Program-made: the position numbers and the translations under genes | Source of the DNA: Buttiauxella agrestis | GTDB lineage: Bacteria; Pseudomonadota; Gammaproteobacteria; Enterobacterales; Enterobacteriaceae | DNA: 64,000 bases | NCBI RefSeq assembly: GCF_900446255.1 | Contig: NZ_UIGI01000001.1 | Location: 3,746,763-3,810,762 of the forward strand | Direction: 5' to 3' | Notes under the pieces: model-generated | Told to the model about the DNA's origin: nothing | Seen by the model: the letters and a program-made list of their open reading frames with translations, nothing else | Database searches by the model: none | Shown: in pieces, positions 5,180-24,990 of the stretch | Layout of the letters: every line of letters starts with the position of its first letter | Numbering within the stretch: the stretch's first letter is position 1

Positions 5180-5192
5180 CCAGGAGGTTATT

Positions 5193-5729
5193 ATGAAGAA
5201 CTATCTGCCAATAATGCTATTTTTATTTTTCTATTCTAGTGCAAGCGAGGCTAAGTGCACTCCCACAACTTTGCGATGTATTAGTACGTCACTAGGTCTA
5301 CTCGAGCAGAAAACTCTGAGCGATTCTAATGATGGTTACTCGCATCTGTCACTTAATGGTAAGGAGATATATAAGGCAAAGACTAGTTATATTGTTGTGG
5401 GGTATGATAATGATGGTATCTTTAAAGGCAAAAAATATTATTTAACTAAAGCAACAATTTCATATACATCAGATGATTCATGCTACCCAGACAAACCAGG
5501 TGCACATTGTGGAATGAATGCCATTCTTGACCTGACAAGTGGAAGCCCCATAATTTCCAATGAATTTTTCTCTGAATTTGGAGAATCTAACATTACTTGG
5601 GTTTCATGGGGAAAGGCTAACTCCATCATAGTAATCGATGATGAATTAAGATTTAAATACTCAAATGGACATGTTGAACAAGTTACCAAAGATAAATACT
5701 CCATTACTGGTAGCTCTCGAAATAAATAG
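5193..5729 (+). CDS. Secreted protein, probable immunity partner of the type VI effector
   Basis: A 178-residue protein. I chose the ATG at 5193 because AGGAGG lies a few bases upstream and the product then begins with a clean signal peptide (MKNYLPIMLFLFFYSSASEA). An upstream ATG at 5157 would add 12 residues and spoil it. The mature part is acidic and beta-rich and holds several cysteines (CTPTTLRC near its start; CYPDKPGAHCG in the middle) that could form disulphides in the periplasm. I do not recognise a named family. The position directly behind a cell-wall-targeting effector, the export signal and the similarly low GC content all fit a periplasmic immunity protein. That role is inferred from context only. 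Confidence 0.7.
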   Translation: MKNYLPIMLFLFFYSSASEAKCTPTTLRCISTSLGLLEQKTLSDSNDGYSHLSLNGKEIYKAKTSYIVVGYDNDGIFKGKKYYLTKATISYTSDDSCYPDKPGAHCGMNAILDLTSGSPIISNEFFSEFGESNITWVSWGKANSIIVIDDELRFKYSNGHVEQVTKDKYSITGSSRNK

Positions 5730-9300: not shown

Positions 9301-12300
9301 CGTTACGACTTAACGCCCCTTCGACCAGTGTTGCCGCGCCAAGAACCACGTTACCCGCACCCGATAACGAACCGACCGAGGTGCTTGCCAGCGCCGCGCT
9401 GATGTCCACCAGCCCGCCAGCAAGGTTGGAGATCACCGCCCCTGCGCCCTGGGCGCTGTCAGCAAATGTGACTTGTCCGCTGTTGGTGACGGTCGCGGAG
9501 CCTGCATCTGCGTTTTCGTTCAGCGCCAGACGCGAAGTGGCATCGACCATGACGTTGGTATTGTTGCCCTGGCTGTTGCCGTTAAATTCCGCGTTACCGC
9601 TGTTGGTCAGATTAATGGTGCTTTGCCCCGCTCCGGCTGCGTCGTTAAACGCCAGCGTGGAATTGTTGACGGCAAAGGTGTGCGTCTCTCCAGAAGCAGA
9701 ATTGTTGAGATTTAAGCGCGCCAGATTCGTCATTGAAATCTGGCTGTCAGCCTTGCCAAATACGCCAGTTGCGTTGGCATTAACCGCCAACTGTCCATTT
9801 CCGGCATTGCCAACAATGTTGGTGTCTCCGAGATAAATATTTTGCCGGTTCAGCTCGAGGAAGCTGTTGTTGCCACTGGCAGACGTGTCATAAATGTTCA
9901 GTTGCCCATCACCACCAATCAGGCCGCCCGGAGTGAAGGTATTGCCGTAGAGATCGAATGCGCCGCCGGTTGCTCCATCGAGGAAGATGTTACGGTCGGT
10001 GGCGAAACTTGCCCCGGCCTGTAACGCAGAACCGTTTCTCAGCGTCACGGAAGTTCCCGCATCGCCGAGACTTAAATCTTTGGACACCTGAAGCGTGCCG
10101 CCCCAGACTTCCACCCCGCCGCTGAAATCGTTATTGCCGTTAAGGATCAAGCGGCCCGGATCGGTTTTCAGCAGTCGGACGACATTGCTGTCCAGTTCGT
10201 CCTGCACCAGATCTGCGTTGATGGTCGTCGTCACTGCCGGGTCGCCAGCTGCACCAACACGAATCACGAAGAATGAATCGGCGTCAGTTTCACCTTCAGT
10301 CTGGAAGCGGTTAGTCGGTACGGGAACCGGGATATCAAATGAACTGGTGACGGTGCTGATGTAGTGCAATTGTGAGGCTGGGTTGAGCTGTTGCAAAACA
10401 TAGCCATCTGTCAGAAATTGCATACCCGAAGTGATAACGCGGCCATTAATATCGCTGATGGTGACGGTGCCTTTTTCACCTTCAAAAATGGCGAAGGCAG
10501 TCTGCGCCCATGGCTCGTTGCCCAATCCATCTTGTTCTGTCCAGTTATTGGTTTGACCCAAAAGATTAGTACGCCACGTCCCATCGCCACCATTAACTTG
10601 CCGGTTCCCAGTCGACCCGTCGCCATGGTTCGCCGGGTCATCGCCATCCCAGAATTGCAATTCGGAAGCGGGGTTGGGGAAGTTTAAGATAAGGTTAACC
10701 TGCCCAGGAATAGCGGTCTGGATATAATAATTCGCCCGATCGGCAGTCGGTAACGTACCCAAAATCATATTGTTATCAGTCAGGCCGCCAGTCTGGTAGT
10801 TAAACAAGCGATAGACACCCGGAATGAATGCACCTCCCGCGGCCAGCGTGACGTTGACGACACCATCAAGAATAAGGCTGCCACCCACGTTCACCAGATC
10901 GTTAAGCGCACCGCCCGGCACATAGGCCTGGCCGAGTTCAAACTGGCTGTTCGTCGTGTTTGATAATGTGAGATTTTTATTGATGGTTAAGGTGCCGACG
11001 CCGCCATCTCCCGGAGTCAGCCGGGTAAGCGCATCAAAGACGACATCGCCGCCGATAGTTCCCGTCCCACCGAGTGTCGCATTGGTGTGAACGGTTGTCA
11101 GGCCAGTTGCCAGGCTTTGATTGCCCTTAACCAACAACGTGCCCTGGTTTACTTCGGTAGCACCCGTCCAGGCGTTGGCTCCACCAAGACGCGTCGTGCC
11201 TGCTCCATCCTGATGGAACGCACCGCTACCCGAAATCACACCGTTAAGAAGAATATCGTCAGAACGATCAATAGTCAGAATACCGTCGTCGGTGATGTTA
11301 GTCGTTTGGGACAAACTCCCCACCGTTCCGCCATCGCCCAGCGCGAGTTCTGAGCCTGCGCCAATGTAAGTATTTCCGGTGTAAGTGTTCTCGCCAAGCA
11401 GCGTCGTTTTGCCCGCGCCGATGCGTTCCATACCGCCGCTGCCACTGATAATTCCGCTGTAAATCTGGTCGGCAGCGCCATCAAAAGAGAGCAGGCTCGT
11501 CGCGCCGGAAGTAGAAACATTGTAGTTATGCAGGGTGGCGTCACCGGGTGTCGATGCACTGTCGCCCGAGCGCAGCGTTGCGCCGTTGTTGATGTTGATT
11601 GCCTGAGCGCCGGAAAGCGTCAGGTCGTCAACAATCCGCGCATCGGTGGCATCGCCATCCAGGGTCAGGGTGCTCCAGCCGGTGCCAATATTGGTGCCTT
11701 TTACCAGGTCGTCCGCGGTAAAACTTCCCAATAACGCAGGGGCGGTTCCCTGATGCGTACCGTTGAGCGTCAACGTATTGTTGGTGCCGCCTTCGCTGAG
11801 AATGTGCGTGACTTTTGCCAGCGAAACATCGCCAAGCGTGGCGCTGTCGTTACCATCCCCACCGGTAAAGGTGACGCCGCCGGTGTAAGCACCCGCCGTC
11901 CAGCTAAACTGGTCGTTACCGCTGCCTAACACAATTTCGCCACGGGTATCCGCACCCGCGCCGCTCAATGCCACTACATCTTTACCATTCCCGGTCAAAA
12001 TCGCCTGCGCCGTGGCATCTGCCGCCAACAACGAGCCGCTGTTATTCACGGTGGTATTGCCGCTGCCTGATGCATCAATAACGGGTGCGCCCGCGCCCAG
12101 ACTGGTGATATTACCGGTGTTCGTGATGGTACGGCTGGCGCCCGCCACGCCATCGGTTGCGACAATTGCCGACCCTGCGCCCGCCGCCATATTGATGGTC
12201 GCGCCAGACGTCACGTTATCCGTGGTTCTCGCCAGAATCCCGACGCTGCCCGCGCCATTACCGTTGATGGTGTAGCCGTTATCAATGGTGAGATTCCCGG

Positions 12301-15300
12301 TCGTGGGGTCGCCGTTCGCATTCATAAAGGCAAAGCCCTGGCCGTTTCCGGAAACGTTCAGTGTGTTACCGGCACCCGCCGCGCTAAACGTGACCGCCGT
12401 GCGGATCGCCGGGCCATTCGAGGCGTTAATCGTTACGCCGTTAAGGTTGATGTTCGAGGTGTCGGCGTTGTTATTAATCCCGGCACCGCTGTCGGATATG
12501 TCGATAACCGTGTTGGTCGCGGTAAATGATGTCGCGCCGGAGTCCATTCTTACGCCATCAGCGCCACCGGAGGCGGTGATATGATTGCCCGTTCCGTTGA
12601 CCGTCAGATTCGCACCCGTACCAATTAACTGTACTGCCGCCAACCCTCCAGTTGCATTAACGGTGCCAAGACGATTCACCACCGCATTCGCCCCGCCGAC
12701 GCGCAGCCCAACGTTGCCACTTCCGGTCGCGCCACTCACGCTAATCGTGTTGTTATTGGTCAGCACTCCGTTGTTCTGGATATTGACGCCAATATTATTG
12801 GTGCCCAAAACGCTGACCGGCGCGTTCACAATCGCCGAGCCATTATCGTGCAGAAGGATCCCGGTACTGTTCGTTCCGTTTAACGCAATCCCCGTGCCAT
12901 TGAGGGTTAATTGCCCGAGGTGCGAAACGTTATAGCCAGTAATACCGCTTTGCGAAGAAAGCGTTGTCGTCGCCGCATTCGATGTAACGAGCGTAATTAA
13001 TTCTTCGGGGTCGATGGTACTGTCGATATTGTAATTACGCCCATCAACCACAACGGCTGTGGTGTTATTTCCACCTAATACGATGCCACCATCACTAATT
13101 GTCCCTTGCGCACCACCGGTGACTTTCACCCCGACGGCACCATTACCGTTGACGTTAATTTTCGCCGTACCGGTATCGAGTGTCGTTTTTGTCCCGCTCT
13201 TTTCATCCAGACCGTTGGCGAATATCCCGGTCGCATTTTCGCCGGAAACGGTCAATTGATAACCCGCCGCCGACCCGCTGCCCGCAAACGTCGCGCCATG
13301 GTCTACCGCAAATAAAATCGAATCTTTCTGGCCGTTATCATTGATAGCCGCGCTGCCGATGTTAATTAGCGCTTCATTGCCCCAGGCGTAGTAGCCCATC
13401 TGTTGGGTGTTTTCAAAGGTGAGCGTTGAGTCGGCATTAATATCAATTTGCGCATCTCCGCGCGCGTGAACCCCGATTGCCCCGGCCGATAACAAACGAA
13501 TAGTGGAGTTCAGGTTAACCTGGGCATGTTGAGTATTCAGCCCTTCGGCGTAAACCGCATAATTGCGATAAGTATACGGTTGCCCGTCGCTACCCCCGGT
13601 ATCCCCTGCGGTCCCCACGGTAATAGTGCTGCCATCCGTCGAACTGACTGTCGCCCCTGAGTTTTGCGCCAGCACGTTGATGGCGATGTTGTTATCACCA
13701 TCAACGTTAATATCACCGTTGTGGGTCACGGTGCCGGTATTGTCGGCAACATTCAGGCCATAGTTTGCCGCAGCCGATCCGTTAGTCAGCTTCCCTAAAA
13801 CATTAATTGTGCCGTTGTTGGTTATCGCCCCGGTCGCACCCTGCACGGAAATCCCGGCAGCGTTACGGATATTTTCTTCCAGTGTGATAGTGCCGGTGTT
13901 ATTTACCGCCCCGGAACTTTGCGTGTGAATACCCGCAGAAAGATCGCCGCCCGTCATCGGAACTGGCGTTGGCGCGGTGGCATCGAAAACAGGCGTCACG
14001 CCGAGGTAGATATTCCCCGCATTCGTCAATGTCGCGCCATCTTGCAGGAAGATACCGTACCCGCCCGCTCTCCCGCCTGCATTCTTGATGTTACCCACCA
14101 GCGCAATGGTGGCGTCGGCGGCGTTGGTGACAGCCGTCGTACCTGATGCGCTGATCCCGCGCGCATTGTTGGTGGTGGTGTCTGTTATCGCGACATTAAT
14201 ATGACCATTGTTGGTTAATATGCTGGTGCCGCTGCCCTGCATCCCCACGCTGCCCGCGTTAGAGACATTTTGATTGTTGCCGTCTTTTTCAATAAACAAC
14301 CCGGCGTTCAATGTGCCGTTGTTGATCGCGTCGGCATTAGTGGTCAACATGCCGACTGAGGTTGGGCTACTGCCACTGCTGCGCCATGCGTTTATCGCAC
14401 CGTCGTTAGTGATAATCGCGTCAGTATCGGCGCGCATCACCGCCGAGGCACCATCCACGGCGAGGCTGCCATCGGCCGTGACCAGCCCTGAAGCATTGAC
14501 TCCGGTGGCATAAATTACGTTTAAATCCCCGGTGCCAAGCGTTGCGTTATTGGTGTGCCCGCTTTTGTCATCCCAAACGTGATAGGTCAGATTGATGCTG
14601 GTGTTTTCCTCTTGCGCCAGCATTCCGGTGATAATCGCGTCGTAGGTATTTTGCGCTTCAACCGTTGAATCAATGACTTCGCCGTTGACCGAAGCCCCCG
14701 CCGTCAGCCAGTACTGGATTTGCGGCTTGCCGGCATAATCCCCGTCGCCTACCAGGAAATCGTTAACCTCTGCGATATCAGTCGATGAGTTAATGGTGAA
14801 TGTTTTATTTCCCAGCAAAACCACTCGCGGCCCAATTTGCTCGTAGTTGGGCAGCGTGATAGTGAAATCGTATTTTGCACTTTGCGCACCAAGCTGTTGC
14901 GTATCGCTTTGAAGCTCAATCGCCGGGCGGAAAACAATATAGTTATCCGAAAGCCACTGCGTGCTGCTGGCAACACCTGCGCTGCCATCGGCTTTCGCCA
15001 GCACAGAGTTTTTGGTCAGTAAATTAATGGTATTGGCAGCGGCTGAAATAGGCGTGGTGGTATCGCTCGAACCGACATTGATATTGGCCTGTCCACCCGT
15101 TGACGCCACTGAGGCAATACCAAAATTATTAAAGATACGAATAGAATTATGATCATAAACGGGTAAAACCATTGCGCTTACGGCGGTGTCATCGGCGGAA
15201 ATAAAAGTCGATGAATCATAAACACTCACCACCTGGTAGCTGCCGTCCAGGCCCGGAACTTCAACATTCAGCTCCAGGCTTTCTTGTGGAACAGCCGGAG

Positions 15301-15808
15301 ATGGGGAATAGGTGTACTGGCTAATATTGGCTTCAGTTATCGTGGTGGCGGCACCTGTCGAATCTGTTGCCTCAATAACGGTGATGCGGTCGGGGTCAGT
15401 CCCTGTGCCGCCCGGCAGCGCATTGAGCACGGTGACGCCCGTGCTCGCACCGTTAGAACCGGCGGCAATAAACGGTATTGGGCCATTGATATTCAGGACG
15501 GTGCCTGGAATATAGTGGTTTGGCAGACCTTGATTATCAATCGTGAAGGCAAATCCGGTATCACGAATGGTATCGTAATCAATGTCCTGATTTTCCGGGA
15601 ATAAATAAGCGGGATACGCGGTTATCCATGTCACATCGTCCGCGATGGCGTAGCTTGTATAACTCCCGGTTAGCACAAGCGCTGCTGCTAATAATTTTTT
15701 CCCACCCCGGCCCGTTTTGCTCCCTTTTTTCCCACCCCGGGATATTTCTGCAACAGCAATATAGCTGTTAGCAACATGGCTCCAGACTAATCGATATATA
15801 TTATTCAT
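6317..15808 (-). CDS. Giant type V autotransporter adhesin with ESPR signal
   Basis: About 3163 residues from the chosen start at 15808. I chose it because MNNIYRLVWSHVANSY is the canonical start of an extended signal peptide region, followed by a basic stretch and a hydrophobic segment ending SYAIA. The ATG 35 codons upstream adds an atypical segment. The passenger (to about residue 2880) is a Gly/Asn/Thr-rich beta-helix: first TNNG-type repeats, then autotransporter-associated strand repeats (GSGTLNLTADNTWTG and similar). Two homologous modules of about 260 residues lie at 10391-11175 and 8450-9220. An autochaperone-like segment (LGAIIRQADLAVLGTLHQRVG) precedes the C-terminal 12-strand barrel (from about 2885, FWARYIVKS), ending in the Phe (GIKIRF) recognised by BAM. 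The role is likely adhesion or aggregation at the cell surface. It is co-oriented with the calpain-like gene upstream. Confidence 0.93.
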   Translation of the reverse strand: MNNIYRLVWSHVANSYIAVAEISRGGKKGSKTGRGGKKLLAAALVLTGSYTSYAIADDVTWITAYPAYLFPENQDIDYDTIRDTGFAFTIDNQGLPNHYIPGTVLNINGPIPFIAAGSNGASTGVTVLNALPGGTGTDPDRITVIEATDSTGAATTITEANISQYTYSPSPAVPQESLELNVEVPGLDGSYQVVSVYDSSTFISADDTAVSAMVLPVYDHNSIRIFNNFGIASVASTGGQANINVGSSDTTTPISAAANTINLLTKNSVLAKADGSAGVASSTQWLSDNYIVFRPAIELQSDTQQLGAQSAKYDFTITLPNYEQIGPRVVLLGNKTFTINSSTDIAEVNDFLVGDGDYAGKPQIQYWLTAGASVNGEVIDSTVEAQNTYDAIITGMLAQEENTSINLTYHVWDDKSGHTNNATLGTGDLNVIYATGVNASGLVTADGSLAVDGASAVMRADTDAIITNDGAINAWRSSGSSPTSVGMLTTNADAINNGTLNAGLFIEKDGNNQNVSNAGSVGMQGSGTSILTNNGHINVAITDTTTNNARGISASGTTAVTNAADATIALVGNIKNAGGRAGGYGIFLQDGATLTNAGNIYLGVTPVFDATAPTPVPMTGGDLSAGIHTQSSGAVNNTGTITLEENIRNAAGISVQGATGAITNNGTINVLGKLTNGSAAANYGLNVADNTGTVTHNGDINVDGDNNIAINVLAQNSGATVSSTDGSTITVGTAGDTGGSDGQPYTYRNYAVYAEGLNTQHAQVNLNSTIRLLSAGAIGVHARGDAQIDINADSTLTFENTQQMGYYAWGNEALINIGSAAINDNGQKDSILFAVDHGATFAGSGSAAGYQLTVSGENATGIFANGLDEKSGTKTTLDTGTAKINVNGNGAVGVKVTGGAQGTISDGGIVLGGNNTTAVVVDGRNYNIDSTIDPEELITLVTSNAATTTLSSQSGITGYNVSHLGQLTLNGTGIALNGTNSTGILLHDNGSAIVNAPVSVLGTNNIGVNIQNNGVLTNNNTISVSGATGSGNVGLRVGGANAVVNRLGTVNATGGLAAVQLIGTGANLTVNGTGNHITASGGADGVRMDSGATSFTATNTVIDISDSGAGINNNADTSNINLNGVTINASNGPAIRTAVTFSAAGAGNTLNVSGNGQGFAFMNANGDPTTGNLTIDNGYTINGNGAGSVGILARTTDNVTSGATINMAAGAGSAIVATDGVAGASRTITNTGNITSLGAGAPVIDASGSGNTTVNNSGSLLAADATAQAILTGNGKDVVALSGAGADTRGEIVLGSGNDQFSWTAGAYTGGVTFTGGDGNDSATLGDVSLAKVTHILSEGGTNNTLTLNGTHQGTAPALLGSFTADDLVKGTNIGTGWSTLTLDGDATDARIVDDLTLSGAQAININNGATLRSGDSASTPGDATLHNYNVSTSGATSLLSFDGAADQIYSGIISGSGGMERIGAGKTTLLGENTYTGNTYIGAGSELALGDGGTVGSLSQTTNITDDGILTIDRSDDILLNGVISGSGAFHQDGAGTTRLGGANAWTGATEVNQGTLLVKGNQSLATGLTTVHTNATLGGTGTIGGDVVFDALTRLTPGDGGVGTLTINKNLTLSNTTNSQFELGQAYVPGGALNDLVNVGGSLILDGVVNVTLAAGGAFIPGVYRLFNYQTGGLTDNNMILGTLPTADRANYYIQTAIPGQVNLILNFPNPASELQFWDGDDPANHGDGSTGNRQVNGGDGTWRTNLLGQTNNWTEQDGLGNEPWAQTAFAIFEGEKGTVTISDINGRVITSGMQFLTDGYVLQQLNPASQLHYISTVTSSFDIPVPVPTNRFQTEGETDADSFFVIRVGAAGDPAVTTTINADLVQDELDSNVVRLLKTDPGRLILNGNNDFSGGVEVWGGTLQVSKDLSLGDAGTSVTLRNGSALQAGASFATDRNIFLDGATGGAFDLYGNTFTPGGLIGGDGQLNIYDTSASGNNSFLELNRQNIYLGDTNIVGNAGNGQLAVNANATGVFGKADSQISMTNLARLNLNNSASGETHTFAVNNSTLAFNDAAGAGQSTINLTNSGNAEFNGNSQGNNTNVMVDATSRLALNENADAGSATVTNSGQVTFADSAQGAGAVISNLAGGLVDISAALASTSVGSLSGAGNVVLGAATLVEGALSRNDTISGIISGSGNLVKTGSGTLNLTADNTWTGTANAQQGVLLINGNQAAATGKTTVNSGATLGGAGVLGGSVEVDNGGHLAAGQDLASVGVLEMGALTLNQDSQVDFQFGRPFTVGGSLNDLININGDLSLNGKLNITQTPGGSFDVGVYRVFNYTGALTDNILDIGTAPAAADDLYVQTSIDGQVNLVNRTGAVMRFWDGAGGTGGSLKNNGVINGGDGIWQNNTGNDNWTTDVTTPDGRFNTPYSNGSFAVFGGQAGNVTVDTSLGEVAISGAQFTTNGYVIGGDNITTHTADTVIRVGDGTLLGARYTATINSVIDGEGGINKADLGTLILGGNNQYQGGTQVSGGVLQVSADNNLGAAGTGIGLSGGTLRYGAAFDTARVVTLSNGGGAVDTNGNSVSLLSAVTGSGTLTKQGDGKLTLTQDSTFDGQTTIRNGTLQLGNGGTGGSVGGDIVDDATLAINRSDNVTLNGNISGSGQVLQQGSGTTFLNGRNTWSGITLVEKGTLAAASRNSFSRQSTHIVSSGATLDTGGHNQTVANLVNQGTVNLRGGDVGSTLTVNGDYVGLNGTLKIAAQQHSPGVADHLVINGGAATGSTLLDIDVSQLGEPTTGDGILVVEAVNGATTTAQTTKDAFNIGGDVLTAGAWEYQLFAGNQQGAGEDWFLRAGYRPDVPGFDTLGAIIRQADLAVLGTLHQRVGDEQPWQAGVPEDQDGRFWARYIVKSVDQKHDDPTQSQSSTNYNGMQMGLDLYQDDKWRAGLYTTFMDIDSSINGITGMSGGAAYNSTFSSYLGGYGTWTDTNGFYVDNVLQYGYHSVDLKNMNDRETYNPDGNSFVASVEVGKPWQLWNSNWLIEPQAQLIYQYSDFDDVTLKDPARTKVSVEADGAVIGRLGVRLAADYDTDYGKVKPYIRVNYWQELSDGQDSVTYRNTANSAGATKIDANQRFQTTEAAVGATWAVTTEVQTYTEVGKTWDNGGDTQVDSDISASVGIKIRF
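15695..15740. repeat. 16-bp direct repeat, period 30, in the autotransporter signal region
   Basis: TTTTTTCCCACCCCGG occurs at 15695-15710 and 15725-15740. In the minus-strand frame it encodes a duplicated RGGKK ten-residue unit within the basic part of the extended signal peptide. Confidence 0.8.
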
Positions 15809-16129
15809 AAGCAATCTCTGCATGGCCACAAAAGTAATAACGCGCTGAAACATAAAGACAACGACAAACACGTGTCGAAATACTTTAAGTAACAGTAGTA
15901 CATGGCGGTGCAATGAAAAGCTGGCAGGAGAAAAAGTATTACTTAACTAATACTGCCTCACATAATGCTTTGAAAATGTAATATTAATAGATGCCCTCTA
16001 GCAGAGAACGATTAATTATCAAGGGTTGCCATAAAAATAATTAACCAGATATTTAGTGTGGTAATAATGTAATTAGACTTTTGATAAAATATCCCCATCA
16101 TTAAAGACAGGGATATGAATACTTAATTA
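15809..16129. other. AT-rich intergenic region between autotransporter and calpain-like genes
   Basis: About 320 bases, AT-rich, presumably holding the promoter and leader of the autotransporter gene. Apart from the weak hairpin at 16089-16116 I see no RNA gene, further repeat or convincing ORF. Confidence 0.6.
16089..16116 (-). terminator. Weak hairpin after the calpain-like gene
   Basis: ATATCCC (16089-16095) and GGGATAT (16110-16116) can pair. On the minus strand the hairpin is followed by TTTATC, downstream of the gene ending at 16130. The stem is short, so confidence is limited. Confidence 0.4.
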
Positions 16130-19100
16130 TCAGGCATGTGAAGCGGCAAGGGTGCCGTTATTCACATTGACGGGTAACGCAGCCGTGGAGAGCACTGCAG
16201 AAGGAGATGTGTTCATCGCAGCCATCGCGTGAACAAGTTGACCAGCAGCGTCAGCCGTTCCGTTTGAATTCACGATAGCAATCCCTGTACTGTAATTGCC
16301 ACCCTGCCACATTTGATCCATTGAGGCTTCAAATGTTCCCTGCACATTATCGTTGCGGAAAGCGCCCCACGGATTGGTGAGAATAAAATCATTCGTTACG
16401 TCGTCAAAACCGATAATCGCAAATGCGTGCGCACCGACAAGATTGGTTTGCCCTGTATCGGCATTTTGTGAGCTCTCCCAACTGGAAAATTGTACAGGTT
16501 GACCGTTGAGTACCGCGGTTTTCAGCAGATCAAAATCTGTGGTATTCCATTTTTCCTCGGTTGTATATACCGCTCTGAACGTTGTGTTGGTGTCACCGGT
16601 TATTTCTTGCAACTTGTCAAAACCACCAGGCAGACTTGAGTAGTCATTCACTTCATTCAAATAAGTCGCTTCAAAATCAACAACCGCACGTTCAATAATC
16701 GCCCCCCAACTTGAGTTTGCTGAACTTGTGCCGCTACCATCAACATTGCCATCTACGGTGACCCAATGCGCCACGCCTTCTTTAAAGAAACGCACGCTGT
16801 AGGTATCATTTGGGTTCTGAACGATCATTGACTTGATGAAATCAGGTGCCGTTTCCACAACCGCCTGAAGCGCGGAAAGAAGCGAACAATCCCCGACTCC
16901 TCCCTGCTGAATGTCATTAATTGTCGGGCCACCTTTTGCGAACACGGGGCGCCCATCAACATGATCAGATGAAGAAGATTTCGGGTCGTTCGCACCATCA
17001 AACCAGGTAGAAATTAACTGGTTAAATTGCGCGACTGATGAGCCTTCATTCAGGCTGCCAATTCGCTCGCCTTTCCCCGTAGCACTCCAGTAAACCGATG
17101 CGCCATTGGTGCCAATCAGCCCGTTCACCAGGGAATAGATTGCCGAGTCAGTCCCACAGACATTGCCAATTTCCTGAACATAATTTTTTATGTCGCTGTA
17201 CTGGCTTGCACTGAGGTTGCCGTTTATCTGTGAGGCGAAATCTTTAAGCACAGATTCAATGGTCTGGAAGCTGAACAACGAGGCATCGTTTGTCATTGCA
17301 TTGTGCATCAACACTTTCAGTGCCGGGTCGCTCATGTTATTGACCAGCGAAGTCCCGGTTTCCACAGAAGTGCTAATGAGCAAATTCTGGCTTTCTGGCA
17401 ACTGGGCCAGTTGCTCGACGGACATCAGTTGCGAAACGGTTAGCAGCTGATCGGTGGACAATGACGATATTAAATTGCTCAGTGCAGATAAATCATTAAT
17501 GGCCCAGAAGTGTTGATAATCCAGCCCTGCAAAGGCAACAGGATTCAACGTCCCCAGTTGTTCCGAGGTTAAGGCCGCAAAGGATGCAGTATCCAGATTG
17601 TTGAGGAAGACCGCAGGGAGCAACGATAAATCACTGCCGAAGCCCGCCATTTGTGCCGTTGTGAACCCATGGGCCGCCGCCGCCGGGATCCAGTCGAAAT
17701 GCTGCAATGCCTGAATTTGTTCAGCACTTAACGTCGAAACTTGCTTCGCTGTCAGCCCCTGATATTCCGTTTTGGACAACTGTTCAATGGTGGAGACAGG
17801 AAGCTTTGAAATATCTAAATAACCGAATTGGTCGCTGGTCAAATTACTAATATGGGGTGCATGTGCAACCTGCTCTGCGGTTAATACTGCCAGATGCTGG
17901 TTATCCCATTGGGTAAAAACATTCGCTTCAATATGAGTAAACTGTTCGGCAGTAATTCCTTGCATCGCCTCGGTACTTAAACTGTTATACCAGCCTGGCG
18001 TGAACCAATAAAAGTTCTGCGTGCAATTTTGAATCTGCTCGACCGTAAAGCCGGAAGCAGCATCATCCGGCATCCAGGCCGCATGCCACATGGCATTAAT
18101 TTGATCGGCACTTAAGGTGGAAATTTGTCCGGCGGTAAGCCCTGAATATTCCTGTTTGCTGAAATAGTTGAACATTGAATCAGGCAATTTGGAAATATCT
18201 AATAAACCAAACTGAGCACTGCTCAGGCTGCCAAAATTATTCATTCCGCCAATCTGATCGGCAGTTAATGCATGCAGGTGTTTATTATCCAGACCCGCTA
18301 ATGTGGCATTGGAAATCTGGCTTGCCTGCTTCGGCGTCAACGCCTGCAATGCTTCAATGCTCAGGTTATTTAGCCATGCCACGCTGAAGTAACCCATGCT
18401 GATAGCAATGCTTTGAACCTGCTGCGGTTTAAAGGCGGTGCCGGTTGCATCCGGCAACCATGAAGTGTGCGCCATTGCACCGATTTGCTCAGGGCTTAAT
18501 GTGGCCACCTGCTGAGGCGTAAACTTCTCGTACACTTCTTTAGACATGCCGCTGATGGCCGAAAGGGAAAGCCCGGAAACATTAAGCCCAGTAAATTGCT
18601 CAGTGCTGAGAGTAGAAAGCTGGTGTGCAGTGAGTGCTGAGGATTCCTTTTGCGTCAGGCTGCTAAGCGCCGAAACTGATAACCCTGAAATATTTAACAA
18701 GCCAAACTGGGCGCTGCTCAGAGCATTCAAATCTGAAATTGCGGTGACCTGTTGTGCTGTTAACGCTGAAAAGTAACCGTTCTCAAGCTTATTAAAAGTA
18801 TCAGCCGAGATTGCAGCAATGTGTTCGTTATCGAGCTGCGCAAAATTCGCCGTGGTGACTTCGTTAAGATGATCGGCGCTGATGGCGCGGAATGTTTCGA
18901 CACTCAGGTTGTTTAAGAAACCAGAAGAGAACCAGTAAAAGGTCGATTTCCAGTTTGAAATCTGCTCGACCGTCAGCGCCCCCGCATGTTGGCTATCCAC
19001 ACCGGTAAGACTGGTGCCAAGAAGCTCGGTAAGCTGTTGAGCCGTAATCGCCTGGAATGCCGGAAGAGATAAGCTATTCATCCATTTCGCATCGAACCAG

Positions 19101-19477
19101 TAAAAGCTGCAGCCCATCGCCGCAACTTGAGCAGGTGTGAAATCGGACAAATGGCTGGCATCCACACCACAAAGCGTATTCGCGGTGAACTGCCCCATTT
19201 GAGTCGGCGTAAGGGCTTGTAGCGCCTCAGTGCTGAGATTATTGAGCCAGCCGGGAGTAAACCAATACATACTGATACTAATTTTTTGCACCATTTCAGG
19301 TGTGAATCCGGCAGCCGCCGCATCTGGCATCCACGAGGTATGCGCCATTTGATGGATTTGGTCCGGGGTCATCTTACTGACAAAATCAGCGGTCAGGCAC
19401 TGGTAGTCGGCCTGGCTCCATGAACCAATTGAATTAAGATCGGGCATTGCAGGGTTGTTTTGTATTGAATCAGGCAC
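16130..19477 (-). CDS. Repeat protein with C-terminal calpain-like cysteine protease domain; candidate type I secretion substrate
   Basis: A 1115-residue protein with a GTG start preceded by AGAGGA at good spacing. Residues 1-690 are degenerate helical repeats of L-T-x-x-Q type. They include six copies of a motif like YWFTPGWLNNLS (near 70, 125, 180, 361, 489, 617) and a 128-residue super-repeat starting at HTSW or a variant (337, 465, 593; also 46). Residues about 840-1060 resemble the calpain (C2) catalytic core: GVGDCSLLSAL with Cys864, GAHAFAIIGF with His1017 and LTNPWG with Asn1035, the order and approximate spacing of the calpain triad. There is no N-terminal signal peptide and there are no RTX nonapeptides. 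The Ala/Ser/Val-rich C-terminus could be a type I signal. The divergent ABC/HlyD/TolC genes (19999-24990) make it the obvious cargo. It may be a secreted toxin or adhesin-protease; substrate unknown. Confidence 0.8.
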   Translation of the reverse strand: MPDSIQNNPAMPDLNSIGSWSQADYQCLTADFVSKMTPDQIHQMAHTSWMPDAAAAGFTPEMVQKISISMYWFTPGWLNNLSTEALQALTPTQMGQFTANTLCGVDASHLSDFTPAQVAAMGCSFYWFDAKWMNSLSLPAFQAITAQQLTELLGTSLTGVDSQHAGALTVEQISNWKSTFYWFSSGFLNNLSVETFRAISADHLNEVTTANFAQLDNEHIAAISADTFNKLENGYFSALTAQQVTAISDLNALSSAQFGLLNISGLSVSALSSLTQKESSALTAHQLSTLSTEQFTGLNVSGLSLSAISGMSKEVYEKFTPQQVATLSPEQIGAMAHTSWLPDATGTAFKPQQVQSIAISMGYFSVAWLNNLSIEALQALTPKQASQISNATLAGLDNKHLHALTADQIGGMNNFGSLSSAQFGLLDISKLPDSMFNYFSKQEYSGLTAGQISTLSADQINAMWHAAWMPDDAASGFTVEQIQNCTQNFYWFTPGWYNSLSTEAMQGITAEQFTHIEANVFTQWDNQHLAVLTAEQVAHAPHISNLTSDQFGYLDISKLPVSTIEQLSKTEYQGLTAKQVSTLSAEQIQALQHFDWIPAAAAHGFTTAQMAGFGSDLSLLPAVFLNNLDTASFAALTSEQLGTLNPVAFAGLDYQHFWAINDLSALSNLISSLSTDQLLTVSQLMSVEQLAQLPESQNLLISTSVETGTSLVNNMSDPALKVLMHNAMTNDASLFSFQTIESVLKDFASQINGNLSASQYSDIKNYVQEIGNVCGTDSAIYSLVNGLIGTNGASVYWSATGKGERIGSLNEGSSVAQFNQLISTWFDGANDPKSSSSDHVDGRPVFAKGGPTINDIQQGGVGDCSLLSALQAVVETAPDFIKSMIVQNPNDTYSVRFFKEGVAHWVTVDGNVDGSGTSSANSSWGAIIERAVVDFEATYLNEVNDYSSLPGGFDKLQEITGDTNTTFRAVYTTEEKWNTTDFDLLKTAVLNGQPVQFSSWESSQNADTGQTNLVGAHAFAIIGFDDVTNDFILTNPWGAFRNDNVQGTFEASMDQMWQGGNYSTGIAIVNSNGTADAAGQLVHAMAAMNTSPSAVLSTAALPVNVNNGTLAASHA

Positions 19478-19998
19478 AGTTTTTCCTCTTGCCGGAATGA
19501 GTCTTTATTTCGACTAAAATAAAACCAATAGATAGGTCAGGATTTATTTGATTGAATGACATATCTATTTTCATAAGAAATAGACACAGAGGCATTCGCA
19601 TAAATATTATCAATCAAAATATTTATCATCAGCTTTATTTTCAGAACAAGCACCAGGCTAAAAGATGAATATAGACATTTAAAACCAATTCTATATTTAC
19701 AACTTACAATCAGCTTTTACCAATCAAAACATATTTGACTTTTTTCTGATCAAAAAGCCGTTAAATAACAAAACCATGAAACTCAAGTGTTAAATAAAGC
19801 ACATAAACCTTGTCTAAAGTTAACAACCCCACACCTCAAAAATTAACCTGGTATATCCAAAAATACTCAATTCCCGATTAAATAGATATTTTACAACCCA
19901 GGCGACCTGTGTTATTTAATCGCGGATATTTTATATCCCTCCTCATATAGTGAAAAACTTGTTAATTAATATGACATCTTTGTCGTCGGCGGTATCCC
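19478..19998. other. AT-rich divergent regulatory region of the type I secretion locus
   Basis: About 520 bases between the divergently transcribed calpain-like gene and the ABC exporter gene. It is very AT-rich, with many A/T runs and an imperfect dyad TTTTT-CTGATC-AAAAA at 19741-19756. Both promoters must lie here. The composition suits H-NS-type silencing, but no specific operator can be named and I see no gene in it. Confidence 0.6.
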
Positions 19999-22170
19999 AT
20001 GGATAGTGGTTTTTTCTGTTTGCAGGTTATCGGAGCCTTTCATCAGGTTGCGGTCGATAAAATAAACCTTCAGCATAAATTCGCCGGCCACATGGAAATA
20101 TCACCCAGCGGACAACCCGTGTTCGGGCAACAGGCTATATTGCTGGCGGCAGACTCTTTAGGGCTAAAGACCAAAGTTGTCCGCCAGGATGCGCGGCGAC
20201 TGGATAAGGCCGTTTTACCTGCGGTGGCAAAGAACAGTGATGGTCGATATTTTATACTGGGTAAATATGACCCAGGCAGTAAAAATGATAGTCAAATCGC
20301 AAAACCCCGCCTGCTGATTCAATATGAAAATAGTCCTCCTGAGTTTATTTCTGTCGATGACTTACAAGAACTCTGGACAGGTGAAGTCATTTATTTCGCG
20401 AGCAAAGTAAATTTCAGCGGGACGTTAGCCAGGTTTGATTTCACCTGGTTTATTCCGGCAATGGTTAAATACCGGCGTATTCTTGGGGAAATTATGCTCA
20501 TTTCCCTGGTGCTGCAATTCATTGGTCTGGTAACCCCCCTTTTCTTCCAGGTCGTCATGGATAAAGTATTGGTTAACCATGCGATGAAAACCCTGCATGT
20601 GGTAGCCATTGGCCTGGTGGCGGCAAATATATTTGAAGCGCTACTCAGCGGTATTCGTACGTGGGTATTTGCCCACACCAGCAGTAAGCTCGACGTAGAA
20701 CTGGGTGCGCGCTTATTTCGCCATATGCTCAATTTGCCGATTGCCTATTTTCAGAGCCGTCGCGTCGGGGACTCTGTCGCGCGCGTGCGCGAACTGGAAA
20801 ATATCCGCTCGTTTCTGACGGGCAACGCCATCACCGTGGTGCTCGATATCCTTTTTTCATTCGTTTTCCTGGCGGTGATGTTCAGCTACAGCGTCAAATT
20901 AACCTTTATCGTCATCGCTTCCATCCCGCTTTACGTCTTTTTATCAGTCATATTCACACCGATATTACGCCACCGCCTGAACGAAAAATTCAACAAATCC
21001 GCTGAAAACCAATCCTTTCTGGTTGAAACCATCAGCAATATCGACACCGTAAAAGCCATGGCCGTCGAACCTCGCTGGGTTAAAAACTGGGATGACCAAC
21101 TGGCGGGTTATGTGACTTCAGGACTGTCCGCGACCAATATTTCAACCATTACCAATGGCGCTATCACATTGATTAGCAAGCTCGTCACCGCCGCAATTAT
21201 GTGGATAGGTGCCAGTCTGGTCATTGATAACCAACTGACCGTGGGGGCTTTAGTGGCATTCAATATGCTTTCCGGCCAGGTCTCCCAGCCGATTTTACGT
21301 TTAGCTCAGTTATGGAATGACTTTCAGCAGGTCGGCATTTCTATGAGTCGCCTGGGGGATATTTTAAACGCTCACCCAGAGGTTGTTGACCAGAAATCGC
21401 CCCTGCCGAAATTATCCGGAGCGATTGAATTCGATCAGGTTTCATTTCGCTATCGCCCTGATGCGGCGGAGGTTCTGCGTCAGGTCAGCCTTGCGATTAA
21501 ACCCGGAGAAGTTATTGGTATTGTGGGTCGTTCTGGTTCAGGAAAAAGCACGCTGACAAAACTGGTGCAGCGGCTATACATCCCCGAACGGGGTCGCGTG
21601 CTGCTGGACGGGCACGATTTGGCGGTCATCAACACCACCTCGCTCAGACACCAGATTGGCGTTGTCCAGCAGGAAAACAACCTGTTTAACCGTTCTATTC
21701 GCGCCAATATCGCGCTCACCAACCCGACGTTGCCCATCGAAGCGGTGATAGAAGCGGCGAAGCTCGCGGGCGCACACGAGTTCATTTGTGAATTACCAGA
21801 AGGCTACGACACGATGGTGGGTGAACAGGGTGCGGGCCTTTCTGGCGGGCAACGCCAGCGCATCGCAATAGCCCGGGCGTTAATCTCAAACCCACGAATT
21901 CTGATTTTTGATGAAGCCACCAGCGCCCTGGATTATGAGTCCGAGAAGATCATTCAGGACAATATGCGCCGCATTTGCGCAGGCCGAACGGTGCTTATCA
22001 TTGCACACCGTCTTTCTGCGGTGCGAGAAGCCAACCGTATTGTGGTGATGGAGCGCGGGCAAATTGCCGAAGTCGGCCATCACGATGAGCTTATCCAGCA
22101 ACCTGATGGAATCTATGCACATTTATATGCGCTGCAACAAGGCACAGCAAAAGAGGCGGCCAGCGTATGA
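19999..22170 (+). CDS. Type I secretion ABC exporter, HlyB-like
   Basis: A 723-residue ABC exporter that aligns along its length with HlyB. The N-terminal C39-like domain (about residues 1-125) has Ser where C39 peptidases have the catalytic Cys (DSG instead of DCG), so it should bind rather than cleave substrate, as in RTX exporters. The transmembrane domain (about 145-420) is followed by the nucleotide-binding domain with Walker A GRSGSGKST, signature LSGGQRQR, Walker B ILIFDEAT and the H-loop IIAHRLS. An in-frame stop lies shortly upstream, so the ATG at 19999 is the only reasonable start. It overlaps the HlyD-like gene by four bases. The likely cargo is the divergent calpain-like protein. 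Confidence 0.93.
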   Translation: MDSGFFCLQVIGAFHQVAVDKINLQHKFAGHMEISPSGQPVFGQQAILLAADSLGLKTKVVRQDARRLDKAVLPAVAKNSDGRYFILGKYDPGSKNDSQIAKPRLLIQYENSPPEFISVDDLQELWTGEVIYFASKVNFSGTLARFDFTWFIPAMVKYRRILGEIMLISLVLQFIGLVTPLFFQVVMDKVLVNHAMKTLHVVAIGLVAANIFEALLSGIRTWVFAHTSSKLDVELGARLFRHMLNLPIAYFQSRRVGDSVARVRELENIRSFLTGNAITVVLDILFSFVFLAVMFSYSVKLTFIVIASIPLYVFLSVIFTPILRHRLNEKFNKSAENQSFLVETISNIDTVKAMAVEPRWVKNWDDQLAGYVTSGLSATNISTITNGAITLISKLVTAAIMWIGASLVIDNQLTVGALVAFNMLSGQVSQPILRLAQLWNDFQQVGISMSRLGDILNAHPEVVDQKSPLPKLSGAIEFDQVSFRYRPDAAEVLRQVSLAIKPGEVIGIVGRSGSGKSTLTKLVQRLYIPERGRVLLDGHDLAVINTTSLRHQIGVVQQENNLFNRSIRANIALTNPTLPIEAVIEAAKLAGAHEFICELPEGYDTMVGEQGAGLSGGQRQRIAIARALISNPRILIFDEATSALDYESEKIIQDNMRRICAGRTVLIIAHRLSAVREANRIVVMERGQIAEVGHHDELIQQPDGIYAHLYALQQGTAKEAASV

Positions 22171-23564
22171 GCCTGAAACTCCGTTACCTTGCCTGGCGTG
22201 ATTTAGTGCAACATTATCGCAGCCACTTTGCCTATTTCTGGAAGCAGCGCCGCAGTCTGACGCCGCCATCATTAAAAGCCAATGAGGCAGATTTTTTGCC
22301 CGCAGCCCTGGCGTTGCAACTGGCACCTGTCTCGCCTACCGCGCGCTGGACGGGGCGTATCTTAATGATCTTAATTGTCTTTATGCTGCTTTGGGCGGTA
22401 TTTGGCAAAGTCGATATCATCGTTTCTTCGAGTGGGAAAATCATCCCCTCGTCTCATACCAAAACTATCGCCTCCGTAGAAACGGCACGCGTGGAGCGAA
22501 TCTATGTGCAAGACGGGCAAACGGTGCACGCCGGAGAACCGCTCGTTCTGCTGGATACGCATATGATTGATCATGAGAAAAACCGCGCGCAGGTCAGTGT
22601 GGATATGGCGACATTACAGGTCGAGCGCTCGCGCGCCCTGCTTGCTTCGATTAATGCCAACACATTTATTGCGCTAACTCATGTCGAGATGATTGCCCCC
22701 GAAAAGGTTGCGGACGCTCGCCATCTGCTTGATAGCCAGTGGCAAAATTTTGCCAGCCGAATAGCGGAGTCAGCCGGAGAAATAAACCGCTACAACCTGC
22801 AATTACCTATCGTGCGCAGCCGGGCGGAAAACTACAAAGAACTCGCCCGCAATCATGATGTTTCGGTTTCATCATGGCAGGAGAAAGAGCAGGACAAAAT
22901 TGAGCTTGAAGGCAAGCTTGCCGACGCGCGCCATCAGCTCGAATCGTTTATTACCGATACGCGCAAGAAAACGGAAGATCAACTCGCAGAAGGGTTAAAG
23001 CAGCAGGCCGAAGCGCTTCAGGATGTTCAACGAGCGACTGCGCATAAAACTCAGTTGCAGCTTACCGCCCCCGTTGATGGCACCGTTCAACAACTCGCGG
23101 TGCATACCATTGGCGGCGTAGTTACCGCCGCGCAGCCCCTAATGTTAATTGTGCCTCAGCAAAACCAAATTGAAATCGAAGCGATTGTCGAAAACAAAGA
23201 CATCGGTTTTATTCATAAAGGTCAGAATGCCGCGGTTAAAATCGAGGCGTTTGATTACACAAAATACGGCATGATGCAGGGGGAAGTGAGTTATGTTTCG
23301 CGCGATGCAATGAACGCAGGGGCCGGTAATCCAGGCGAAAACCCGCAAAGTCGTCAAAGCGATAACGCACAGAAACCGCAAAATTCTCAGTACGCAATTC
23401 ACGTCAGGCTGGACAACAAAACCATAGATATCGACGGCGAACCTTCGCCGCTGAAACCCGGCATGAGCGCCTCCATTGAAATTAAAACCGGCAGCCGTCG
23501 GGTTATCGAATACTTCCTCTCCCCTTTGATTCAACACACGCATGAGAGCCTGAATGAACGCTAA
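22167..23564 (+). CDS. Type I secretion membrane fusion protein, HlyD-like
   Basis: A 465-residue periplasmic adaptor. A cytoplasmic N-terminus of about 55 residues precedes one transmembrane helix (ILMILIVFMLLWAVFG). Next come a lipoyl half-motif (VERIYVQDGQTVHAGEPLVLLD), a long coiled-coil hairpin (about 140-290), the second lipoyl half (LTAPVDGTVQQLAVHTIGG) and a beta-barrel ending KPGMSASIEIKTGSRRVIEY, the usual end of HlyD proteins. It links the ABC exporter to the outer-membrane channel. It overlaps the exporter gene by four bases and the TolC-like gene by eleven, so the three form one operon. Confidence 0.93.
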   Translation: MSLKLRYLAWRDLVQHYRSHFAYFWKQRRSLTPPSLKANEADFLPAALALQLAPVSPTARWTGRILMILIVFMLLWAVFGKVDIIVSSSGKIIPSSHTKTIASVETARVERIYVQDGQTVHAGEPLVLLDTHMIDHEKNRAQVSVDMATLQVERSRALLASINANTFIALTHVEMIAPEKVADARHLLDSQWQNFASRIAESAGEINRYNLQLPIVRSRAENYKELARNHDVSVSSWQEKEQDKIELEGKLADARHQLESFITDTRKKTEDQLAEGLKQQAEALQDVQRATAHKTQLQLTAPVDGTVQQLAVHTIGGVVTAAQPLMLIVPQQNQIEIEAIVENKDIGFIHKGQNAAVKIEAFDYTKYGMMQGEVSYVSRDAMNAGAGNPGENPQSRQSDNAQKPQNSQYAIHVRLDNKTIDIDGEPSPLKPGMSASIEIKTGSRRVIEYFLSPLIQHTHESLNER

Positions 23565-24990
23565 CAAGGTTTTAATCGCGCTGTGTCTGCTTGGTTCGTG
23601 GATGGAGCCTGCGGCAAGCGACATGCTGGACGACCCATTACTGGCGCAGCCTGTGCAATTACAAGAGGGTGCAACGCTGCCGGACTCAAGCCGCATCGAC
23701 TGTGCAAGTGCGGTGGATTTTTCTCATCCGCTGGCGCTGACCGACGCCGTAGACACGGCGCTTTGCAACAACCCGCAAATCCGCGCGACCTGGGCAGAAA
23801 TTAAGATGCAAAGCGGGGTGGTCGGTGAAGCCCGTGCGGCGTACCTGCCCACGATTAACGGTTCTGTCAGCCGTCTTAAAGACACCACGACTTATTCTTC
23901 TGGGGCGCGCCAGCCCTCTTCTACCAGTATCGGCAACCAGTATTACGGTTCGCTAAACTGGCGCTTATTCGATTTTGGCGGGCGCAGTGCAAACCGTGAA
24001 GCCGCTAACGAAATGTTGCTTGCCGCACTTGCCGGGCATGATGCGGCATTACAAAAAACCATGGCATCGGTGATTCAAAGCTGGTTTGAAGCCATGACCA
24101 GCCAGGCGGTGATGGATGCACGCCAACACATTGCGCAGCTTGCGATGCAAACATTAAGCGTGGCTCAACGCCGTGAAACTAAAGGGGCCACCACCCAGGA
24201 CGATACGCTGCAAGCCGCAACGGCGCTGGCAAAAGCGCAGCTTAACGCCATCCACGCCAGGGGGGATTATCAAAAAAACCTCGCACTTCTCAAGCAGGCG
24301 ATGGGGATCGACCTCACCACGGATATCCATTTACCCGCGCAACCGGAGCAGGTTAATCCTTCGGATATTCATGACCTCAACCAGTGGTTGAAACAGGCGG
24401 AAAGCCGCCACCCGGCCATTGCGCAGGCAAGGGCAAAATGGCAGGCCGATAAAGATAAAATCATTCAGGTGCGATCGGATGGCCTGCCAACGCTGGATAT
24501 GACGGCGCATATCTCGCGCAACGGTTTTCCAAACCAGGGGCTGTCTAGCCTCAACCAGACAGACAAAGACATCGGCCTGACCGTATCTGTTCCGTTGTTC
24601 GATGGCTTTAGCCGCCACTATAAAATTCAGGAAGCACAGGCGCAGGCCGAACAAAGCGAAGCCCAGCTTGAAGACACTACCGCGCACATTCTGACAGACG
24701 TGGTGAAAGCCTGGGCCGATGCGAAAACCGCGCTTAGCGTGTTGAGCGTTAGCCAACAATTGTTGGATGCAGCCCAGGCCAGCGTGAATTCATCACGTCG
24801 TCGCTATGATAAAAATGTGGCGGATATTCTTGAGGTTTTGAACGCACAAAGCGCGCTGGCAGACGCCCAGCAGCAGCGCATTCAGGCTATTGCCGAGTGG
24901 CAATCCGCACGATTAAGCCTGCTGGCGAACACCGGGATATTGGGGCAGTTATCCGCAACCGCGCAAACGCGTAGCCAGGATATCCCCTGA
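23554..24990 (+). CDS. TolC-family outer-membrane channel of the type I system
   Basis: A 478-residue outer-membrane efflux protein with an N-terminal signal peptide (MNANKVLIALCLLGSWMEPAASD). It shows the two structural repeats of the TolC family: DAVDTALCNNPQIRATWAEI with YGSLNWRLFDFGGR in the first, and QAESRHPAIAQARAKWQADK with GLTVSVPLFDGF in the second. Long coiled-coil helices surround them, and NVADILEVLNAQSALADAQQ lies near the end. Its presence makes this locus self-sufficient instead of borrowing the housekeeping TolC. It starts inside the end of the HlyD-like gene. No clear terminator separates it from copA, 111 bases downstream. Confidence 0.92.
   Translation: MNANKVLIALCLLGSWMEPAASDMLDDPLLAQPVQLQEGATLPDSSRIDCASAVDFSHPLALTDAVDTALCNNPQIRATWAEIKMQSGVVGEARAAYLPTINGSVSRLKDTTTYSSGARQPSSTSIGNQYYGSLNWRLFDFGGRSANREAANEMLLAALAGHDAALQKTMASVIQSWFEAMTSQAVMDARQHIAQLAMQTLSVAQRRETKGATTQDDTLQAATALAKAQLNAIHARGDYQKNLALLKQAMGIDLTTDIHLPAQPEQVNPSDIHDLNQWLKQAESRHPAIAQARAKWQADKDKIIQVRSDGLPTLDMTAHISRNGFPNQGLSSLNQTDKDIGLTVSVPLFDGFSRHYKIQEAQAQAEQSEAQLEDTTAHILTDVVKAWADAKTALSVLSVSQQLLDAAQASVNSSRRRYDKNVADILEVLNAQSALADAQQQRIQAIAEWQSARLSLLANTGILGQLSATAQTRSQDIP

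Follow-up and report, generated by a model that had tools for sequence, protein, structure and literature searches.

A calpain-like protein with ALTTAQ repeats as the probable cargo of a type I secretion locus in Buttiauxella agrestis

The haemolysin system uses a TolC whose gene lies elsewhere, and the serralysins are metalloproteases of type I secretion systems (T1SS) that carry an uncleaved C-terminal signal. In a 64,000-nucleotide stretch of the Buttiauxella agrestis genome (RefSeq GCF_900446255.1, contig NZ_UIGI01000001.1, positions 3,746,763 to 3,810,762; this whole stretch is called the window below) a gene for a calpain-like protein, designated CAL, stands beside a complete set of type I exporter genes. 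In the excerpted text of Rawlings 2015 (PMC4631099) a Gloeobacter calpain with N-terminal HemolysinCabind repeats is the sole RTX (repeats in toxin) case among the bacterial calpains, and its secretion is only a suggestion; a cytosolic location is suggested for cyanobacterial calpains in excerpts of PMC9380684. A calpain-family peptidase next to a type I exporter set, with this type of repeat and not an RTX exoprotein, is a combination for which we found no description. No earlier account of a calpain/type I pairing or of such an RTX-free repeat protease was among the matches listed from the open-licence literature searched. The original prediction from this DNA could not name a dedicated type I system for a non-RTX repeat protease. 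Our results make it very probable that CAL is the uncleaved, RTX-free substrate of a type I module dedicated to it and that it acts outside the cell.

The locus comprises four genes and one intergenic region:
16130..19477, minus strand: CAL, a 1115-residue ALTTAQ-repeat/calpain-like protein and probable cargo (open reading frame (ORF) with GTG start; Pfam; orthologues and paralogues)
19478..19998, no strand: divergent intergenic region between CAL and HlyB, 521 bp (conserved blocks in six aligned orthologous regions)
19999..22170, plus strand: HlyB-type ATP-binding cassette (ABC) exporter (TIGR01846 above cut-off)
22167..23564, plus strand: HlyD-type periplasmic adaptor (TIGR01843 above cut-off)
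23554..24990, plus strand: TolC-like outer-membrane channel, operon-encoded (Pfam OEP; TIGR01844 below cut-off)
The exporter ORFs overlap by 4 bases (HlyB/HlyD) and 11 bases (HlyD/TolC-like) and form an operon at 19999-24990 on the plus strand, divergent from CAL at a distance of 521 bp. This is the arrangement originally predicted, i.e. overlapping HlyB, HlyD and TolC genes divergent from a protein of 1115 residues. HlyB scores 975.9 bits with the NCBIfam model TIGR01846 (cut-off 725.55) and stays under the cut-off of the PrtD model (384.3 bits, cut-off 510.15). HlyD reaches 302.3 bits with TIGR01843 of NCBIfam (cut-off 208.65), and the TolC-like protein 198.1 bits with Pfam OEP (cut-off 22; 1.5e-58). 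Scanning for promoters and terminators gave counts close to those of shuffled sequences (14 versus 11.7 and 9 versus 11.1).

The exporter starts with the following domain:
19999..20406, plus strand: C39-like domain of the exporter, both catalytic Cys and His replaced (alignment to the E. coli HlyB domain 3zua)
It aligns with the HlyB domain of 3zua at 2.5e-10 and has Ser in place of the Tyr and Tyr in place of the His of E. coli HlyB. Ser at the first of these positions and Tyr or Phe at the second are shared by all eight HlyB sequences that are at least 85% identical, the window's own included. We take the two positions to be those of the catalytic Cys and His of C39 peptidases. With both residues replaced, the exporter should not cleave a leader peptide. 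The loss of the Cys had been noted in the original prediction, and the His position turns out to be changed too.

CAL ends in a peptidase domain, whose core and catalytic codons are as follows:
16358..16951, minus strand: calpain-like (C2) catalytic core, residues 843-1040 (Pfam, PDB profile search, Foldseek, dN/dS)
16886..16888, minus strand: codon of Cys864, the nucleophile (invariant in 18/18 CALs; aligned with the calpain GDC motif)
16427..16429, minus strand: codon of His1017, the general base (invariant in 18/18)
16373..16375, minus strand: codon of Asn1035 in the NPWG motif (invariant in 18/18)
The Pfam model Peptidase_C2 matches residues 843-1040 with 50.6 bits (gathering cut-off 23.8), and Gln858 is as unchanged as Cys864, His1017 and Asn1035 in the 18 CALs. 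With a profile built from the domains of the 18 CALs, 16 distinct PDB sequences are reached at E <= 0.001: 15 bear the name calpain, and the last is called 'thiol protease domains I and II' (calpain I in its Foldseek title). When the predicted domain (predicted template modelling score 0.69) is compared with known structures by Foldseek, ranks 1-40 are all calpains, the best E being 1.7e-10 and the TM score about 0.5. Between the C-terminal 316 residues of the window's CAL and those of seven relatives the ratio of nonsynonymous to synonymous substitution rates (dN/dS) is 0.08-0.20, which fits an enzyme held active through selection. The C-terminal fold is calpain/papain-like and purifying selection acts on it. 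The domain and the triad had been read from motifs in the original prediction; Pfam and the invariance of the triad bear this out, and the fold itself comes from Foldseek of the models and from the PDB profile search.

Calcium site 1 of calpain 2 consists of Asp96 and Glu175 and is not required in bacterial members (PMC4631099). As we read the alignment to m-calpain, the Asp equivalent, D855, is invariant in CAL, and the Glu175 position is occupied by Ser beside a one-residue gap. The resemblance of D855 and E929 to the site-1 ligands had initially suggested that the protease core has a calcium switch, an idea that was rejected on account of this Ser. With one acidic ligand of site 1 kept and the other one Ser, calpain-type calcium dependence is not expected.

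CAL and the exporter occur together. CAL is found in 7 of 12 Buttiauxella genomes, HlyB orthologues (at least 86% identical) in precisely the same seven, and in the five CAL-free genomes no HlyB above 34% identity is among the matches listed. The chance of such a perfect match is 1 in 792 if kinship is ignored. Four chromosomal sites are occupied by the movable unit of CAL and exporter: the copA-cueR site in the window and in genomes G020, G166, G251, G297 and G299, a further two sites in G298 and a single one in G303. The names copA and cueR, and likewise ybbJ, qmcA and VgrG, are ones that we presume, going by sequence and by the gene order of the E. coli type. Seven genomes, chosen since they were not known to bear the unit at the copA site, served for comparison. 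There copA adjoins cueR directly in G296, G298, G300 and G301, G302 has about 1.5 kb without unit genes there, and G001 and G303 have only the giant autotransporter described below. Going beyond the original prediction, the same four genes are met again at further chromosomal positions and in further genomes, and the repeats of CAL belong to a named Pfam family.

At the level of single copies, 14 of the 18 CALs have at least one T1SS gene on the same contig. The exporter set is in view for 11 of them (window, G020, G166, G251, G298, G299 and G303), the contig of two more (locus L017) carries the TolC-like gene only, and one (L020) lies about 5 kb from a HlyB/HlyD pair of a second type. The CAL at the contig start of L021 (G297) probably completes the L080 gene, whose first half begins beside HlyB at the end of another contig. 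Linkage is not judgeable for L018, on a 6.3-kb contig, and for L019 and L022, which run into contig ends (all G297); no HlyB match is among the matches listed for these three contigs. Identities of HlyB and of the CAL domain are correlated (rho 0.72 over 28 pairs, which are not independent; vertical descent would give the same). The original prediction had asked whether homologues regularly occur without a type I system, and for Buttiauxella the 14/18 linked copies and the match in all 12 genomes argue that they do not.

An island in G298 (4.24-4.28 Mb) holds four CALs and three HlyB-class exporters. One of these is a HlyB/HlyD/TolC set like that of the window, and the others are HlyB/HlyD pairs whose HlyB is 46.9 and 48.5% identical. 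A second HlyB/HlyD pair (about 48% and 28% identical to the window's) is found beside a GH18-like protein in L014 (2033-7065) and L020 (1336-6810). This protein, with PF00704 over its cut-off, shares contigs with CAL paralogues and is possibly another type I cargo. In the G298 island a 224-residue protein with HemolysinCabind repeats (L015, 8653-9327) adjoins yet another HlyB/HlyD pair.

The end of CAL is a candidate for the secretion signal:
16133..16240, minus strand: probable uncleaved C-terminal type I signal, last 36 residues, free of K, R, D and E (charge counts; model)
These residues have low confidence in the AlphaFold2 model and are probably disordered. At most one charged residue is present in the C-terminal 36 residues of 14/18 CALs and of none of 46 other ORFs, where the lowest count is 3; the latter are complete, at least 250 residues long and were picked mechanically from 12 loci, and the CAL relatives are not independent of each other. 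In excerpts of the T1SEstacker paper (PMC8861453) RTX proteins are described as depleted of E, K, R and P in their C-terminal regions and as having a terminal [FLI][VAI]. Compared with this pattern the CAL C-termini match in low charge, yet contain Pro. The final residue is A or V in all 18 and the penultimate one His in 11. At the other end, no Sec signal had been predicted, and the CAL N-terminus is indeed polar as judged by eye only.

The N-terminal two thirds of the protein are repetitive:
17408..19438, minus strand: repeat region, residues 14-690, a predicted solenoid of helices of about 5 residues, mostly 8 apart, almost Arg-free (AlphaFold2 model, helix spacings, self-similarity)
The Pfam model PF20080 (ALTTAQ_rpt) matches CAL with 46.6 bits (gathering cut-off 26.4). 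In the AlphaFold2 model short helices follow one another along residues 14-690, with a predicted local distance difference test score (pLDDT) of mostly 80-95 and a dip near 210-222. The spacing of the helices is exactly 8 residues in 48 of 77 cases (residues 1-660), their median length 5, and self-similarity at offsets 128, 24, 8, 16, 165 and 55 exceeds the best of 300 shuffles. CAL resembles the sequence of the PDB entry HeliScrew4 (3.6e-7); Foldseek with the full model has calpains on top, and other helical solenoids, among them mesothelin at rank 39, match weakly. Of residues 1-700, 0.1% are Arg. The predicted isoelectric point is 4.2-4.6 in 18/18 CALs, some of which are truncated pieces. 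CAL length varies from 735 to 1829 residues in ORFs uncut by contig ends and the size of the C-terminal domain is constant. CAL has no GGxGxD motif, and the Pfam scan gave no HemolysinCabind match; the protein is not an RTX exoprotein. The lack of RTX repeats had been stated in the original prediction.

The CAL domain is rare: among 295 genomes of the family it is present in four, three Buttiauxella and one with a weak 28% match. The CAL-domain profile A1 found 4/349 phylum genomes (G020, G347, G453 and a weak match in G599), 2/222 order genomes (G020 and a weak partial match in G1101) and 0/369 class genomes; the same profile recovered G020 in the phylum and order scans. G599 and G1101 were left out of the relatives. 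A scan of genome contigs with the whole CAL returned one locus, in B. izardii CCUG 35510, and the DNA of the CAL gene had no match in the E. coli collection. A phage origin was rejected (none of 50,697 phage records matched, and 106 pattern stretches on viral contigs included no relative), as was a plasmid origin, calpain-domain matches being present on 2 of 72,556 plasmid records, both distant.

G347, a distant member of the same phylum, encodes a protein of 1816 residues that combines a calpain domain with 11 Calx-beta stretches (L062, 5159-10609). A single RCC1-repeat gene separates its gene from those for a HlyB (36%) and a HlyD that is only partly in view, on the same strand. The architecture of this protein differs from that of CAL, which suggests that the pairing of calpain and T1SS probably arose separately. 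Calpain and Calx-beta proteins of G347 and G453 are found in L062, L063 and L064. Two further proteins match only the domain of CAL: a standalone calpain-like protein of 344 residues in G268 (L011, 8437-9471), 28% identical and with no match to the window's T1SS in 19 kb, and a calpain on a Calothrix plasmid (30% identical), where no T1SS is named among nine features (one is called 'transporter') of a stretch truncated by the record start. ALTTAQ repeats are commoner than the CAL domain and occur in 27 of 398 phylum genomes, and no fusion of ALTTAQ and calpain was found outside Buttiauxella among the proteins scanned, which did not include the second G453 protein (L063).

The original prediction of a type I locus with a calpain-like cargo is well supported at the genomic level by the linkage, the recurrence at several sites, the uncharged C-termini and the separate pairing in G347. 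Several observations weigh against it. The TolC-like protein stays under the cut-off of TIGR01844 (193.8 versus 225.15 bits; NCBIfam), and confidence in the domain model is moderate (a mean pLDDT of 66.8, with 102 of 316 residues below 50). The full [FLI][VAI] ending is present in 4/18 CALs; the window's and 13 others match at the last position only. At DNA level the ALTTAQ model matched two of three CAL-bearing genomes, above the cut-off in one. Two calpain ORFs similar to that of G347, in G453, have no T1SS in view on their contigs. The calpain domain (PF00648) is present in 1/26 ALTTAQ genomes (G020 was left out as already known), and the calpain protein of that genome carries no ALTTAQ repeats. 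No T1SS lies within 17-20 kb in six of seven ALTTAQ loci outside Buttiauxella, so that the repeats alone are no marker of a type I substrate. The idea that ALTTAQ repeats mark type I cargo in general was therefore rejected; of the seven loci only that of G659 has a T1SS in view, its transporter being 27.7% identical to the window's HlyB. In this genome, which belongs to the same class (L066-L067), an ABC/HlyD/TolC-like set is encoded on the opposite strand a few kb downstream of an ALTTAQ frame of 5446 residues.

We also considered, as a doubtful idea, that ALTTAQ arrays correspond to RTX arrays but need no calcium, and that such proteins form a distinct, unnamed class of type I substrates. 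The nearly Arg-free octapeptide helical-screw solenoid would then be unfolded during export and fold outside without calcium. The array would take the place of the ratchet and of the C39-like-domain contacts that RTX repeats offer, and would bear cargo domains such as the calpain-like protease.

A giant autotransporter of 3198 residues lies in the window at 6317-15913 on the minus strand and has an ESPR signal and a beta-barrel (Pfam, NCBIfam). Further away (window 1302-5729) there are a VgrG-like ORF, then a protein with a LysM-like stretch, then a small ORF with a signal-like start; this module is flanked by ybbJ-like and cueR-like genes. The VgrG and LysM-like assignments are presumed, and this is a likely type VI cargo module.

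It could be that CAL is exported and then held at the surface as an adhesin-like or processing protease; one natural substrate would be the neighbouring giant autotransporter, the passenger being cut or released. A related autotransporter adjoins the unit in the window, G166, G251, G297 and G299, autotransporter-like ORFs are present in the G298 island, and an ORF beside the unit in G303 has a start that looks, by eye only, like that of ESPR autotransporters. In addition, the modelled CAL solenoid could serve as an anchor or binding arm. However, G001 has the autotransporter without CAL, G020 and one G298 site have CAL without an adjoining autotransporter, and the Pfam scan of CAL gave no retention domain. 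We regard this explanation as unlikely. A cytoplasmic protease, with the exporter carrying another cargo and the adjacency due to a shared mobile unit only, would be in agreement with signal peptides in just 3 of 66 bacterial calpains in the excerpted text of Rawlings 2015 (PMC4631099), with the calpain proteins of G268 and Calothrix that have no T1SS in view and with the GH18-like neighbour that exporters of the second type have in G298 and G297. This is very unlikely, as the four-gene unit holds no alternative cargo candidate, presence of CAL and HlyB is matched perfectly over the 12 genomes, the unit recurs at four sites, the CAL C-terminus is uncharged and a calpain protein lies near HlyB/HlyD also in the distant G347.

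Proteins exported by a T1SS can act between bacteria, which is a point for the idea that CAL attacks other bacteria as a toxin, either by contact or by diffusion. A cysteine protease is described as an interbacterial toxin in excerpts of PMC12136450. No clear immunity gene was found near CAL in a search that covered the CAL/HlyB gap and 700 bp behind CAL: only short ORFs on the two strands (30-69 codons) are alike between loci, and since these were not followed up, absence of such a gene is unproven. For this reason a protease directed at outside proteins is somewhat more likely than an antibacterial toxin, and we consider the toxin very improbable.

If CAL is the substrate of a dedicated type I module, the following picture can be proposed. 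HlyB with its non-peptidase C39-like domain, HlyD and the locus-encoded TolC-like protein would form one channel, and HlyB/HlyD would recognise the uncharged C-terminus of CAL. The protein would thread unfolded through the HlyD-TolC conduit, C-terminus first and in one step, and be released uncleaved. Outside, the ALTTAQ array may fold as a long solenoid of the helical-screw kind; as a stalk or binding arm, it would keep the protease off the cell surface or bind something. The C-terminal calpain-like domain would then be an extracellular cysteine endopeptidase acting on outside proteins.

If this is true, a calpain-family cysteine protease joins the cargoes of type I systems. CAL would be a natural repeat-rich substrate free of RTX, with its own exporter and channel and probably without a calcium switch, and would allow one to ask how the C39-like exporter domain handles a substrate that lacks RTX repeats. 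It also bears on the role of bacterial calpains, which is largely open in the excerpts of the literature consulted. Copy-number variants, empty sites and repeat-length variants provide a natural comparison set.

Compared with known systems, the locus shares with the alpha-haemolysin-type HlyB/HlyD/TolC systems a HlyB and a HlyD over their cut-offs and a C39-like domain without the catalytic Cys; the putative uncleaved C-terminal signal, whose composition fits in part, would be a further common trait. It differs in that CAL has no RTX nonapeptides, the TolC-like gene is part of the operon and the His position is changed as well. With the bacterial calpain (C2) homologues, as described in the excerpted text of PMC4631099, CAL has in common the C-terminal core, the intact Cys-His-Asn and a patchy distribution within the genus; ALTTAQ repeats, which CAL has, are in none of the bacterial calpain architectures named in that text (Rawlings 2015). 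CAL belongs to the same repeat family as the ALTTAQ-repeat proteins of PF20080 but bears a calpain domain and is linked to a T1SS; the best plasmid-borne ALTTAQ matches are about 25% identical over about 650 residues and come mainly from Rhizobium, Shinella and Cereibacter. Serralysins and, very probably, CAL are both protease cargoes, and CAL would share their uncleaved C-terminal signal; CAL differs in being a cysteine and not a zinc protease, free of RTX repeats, with a predicted N-terminal helical solenoid and a HlyB-type exporter.

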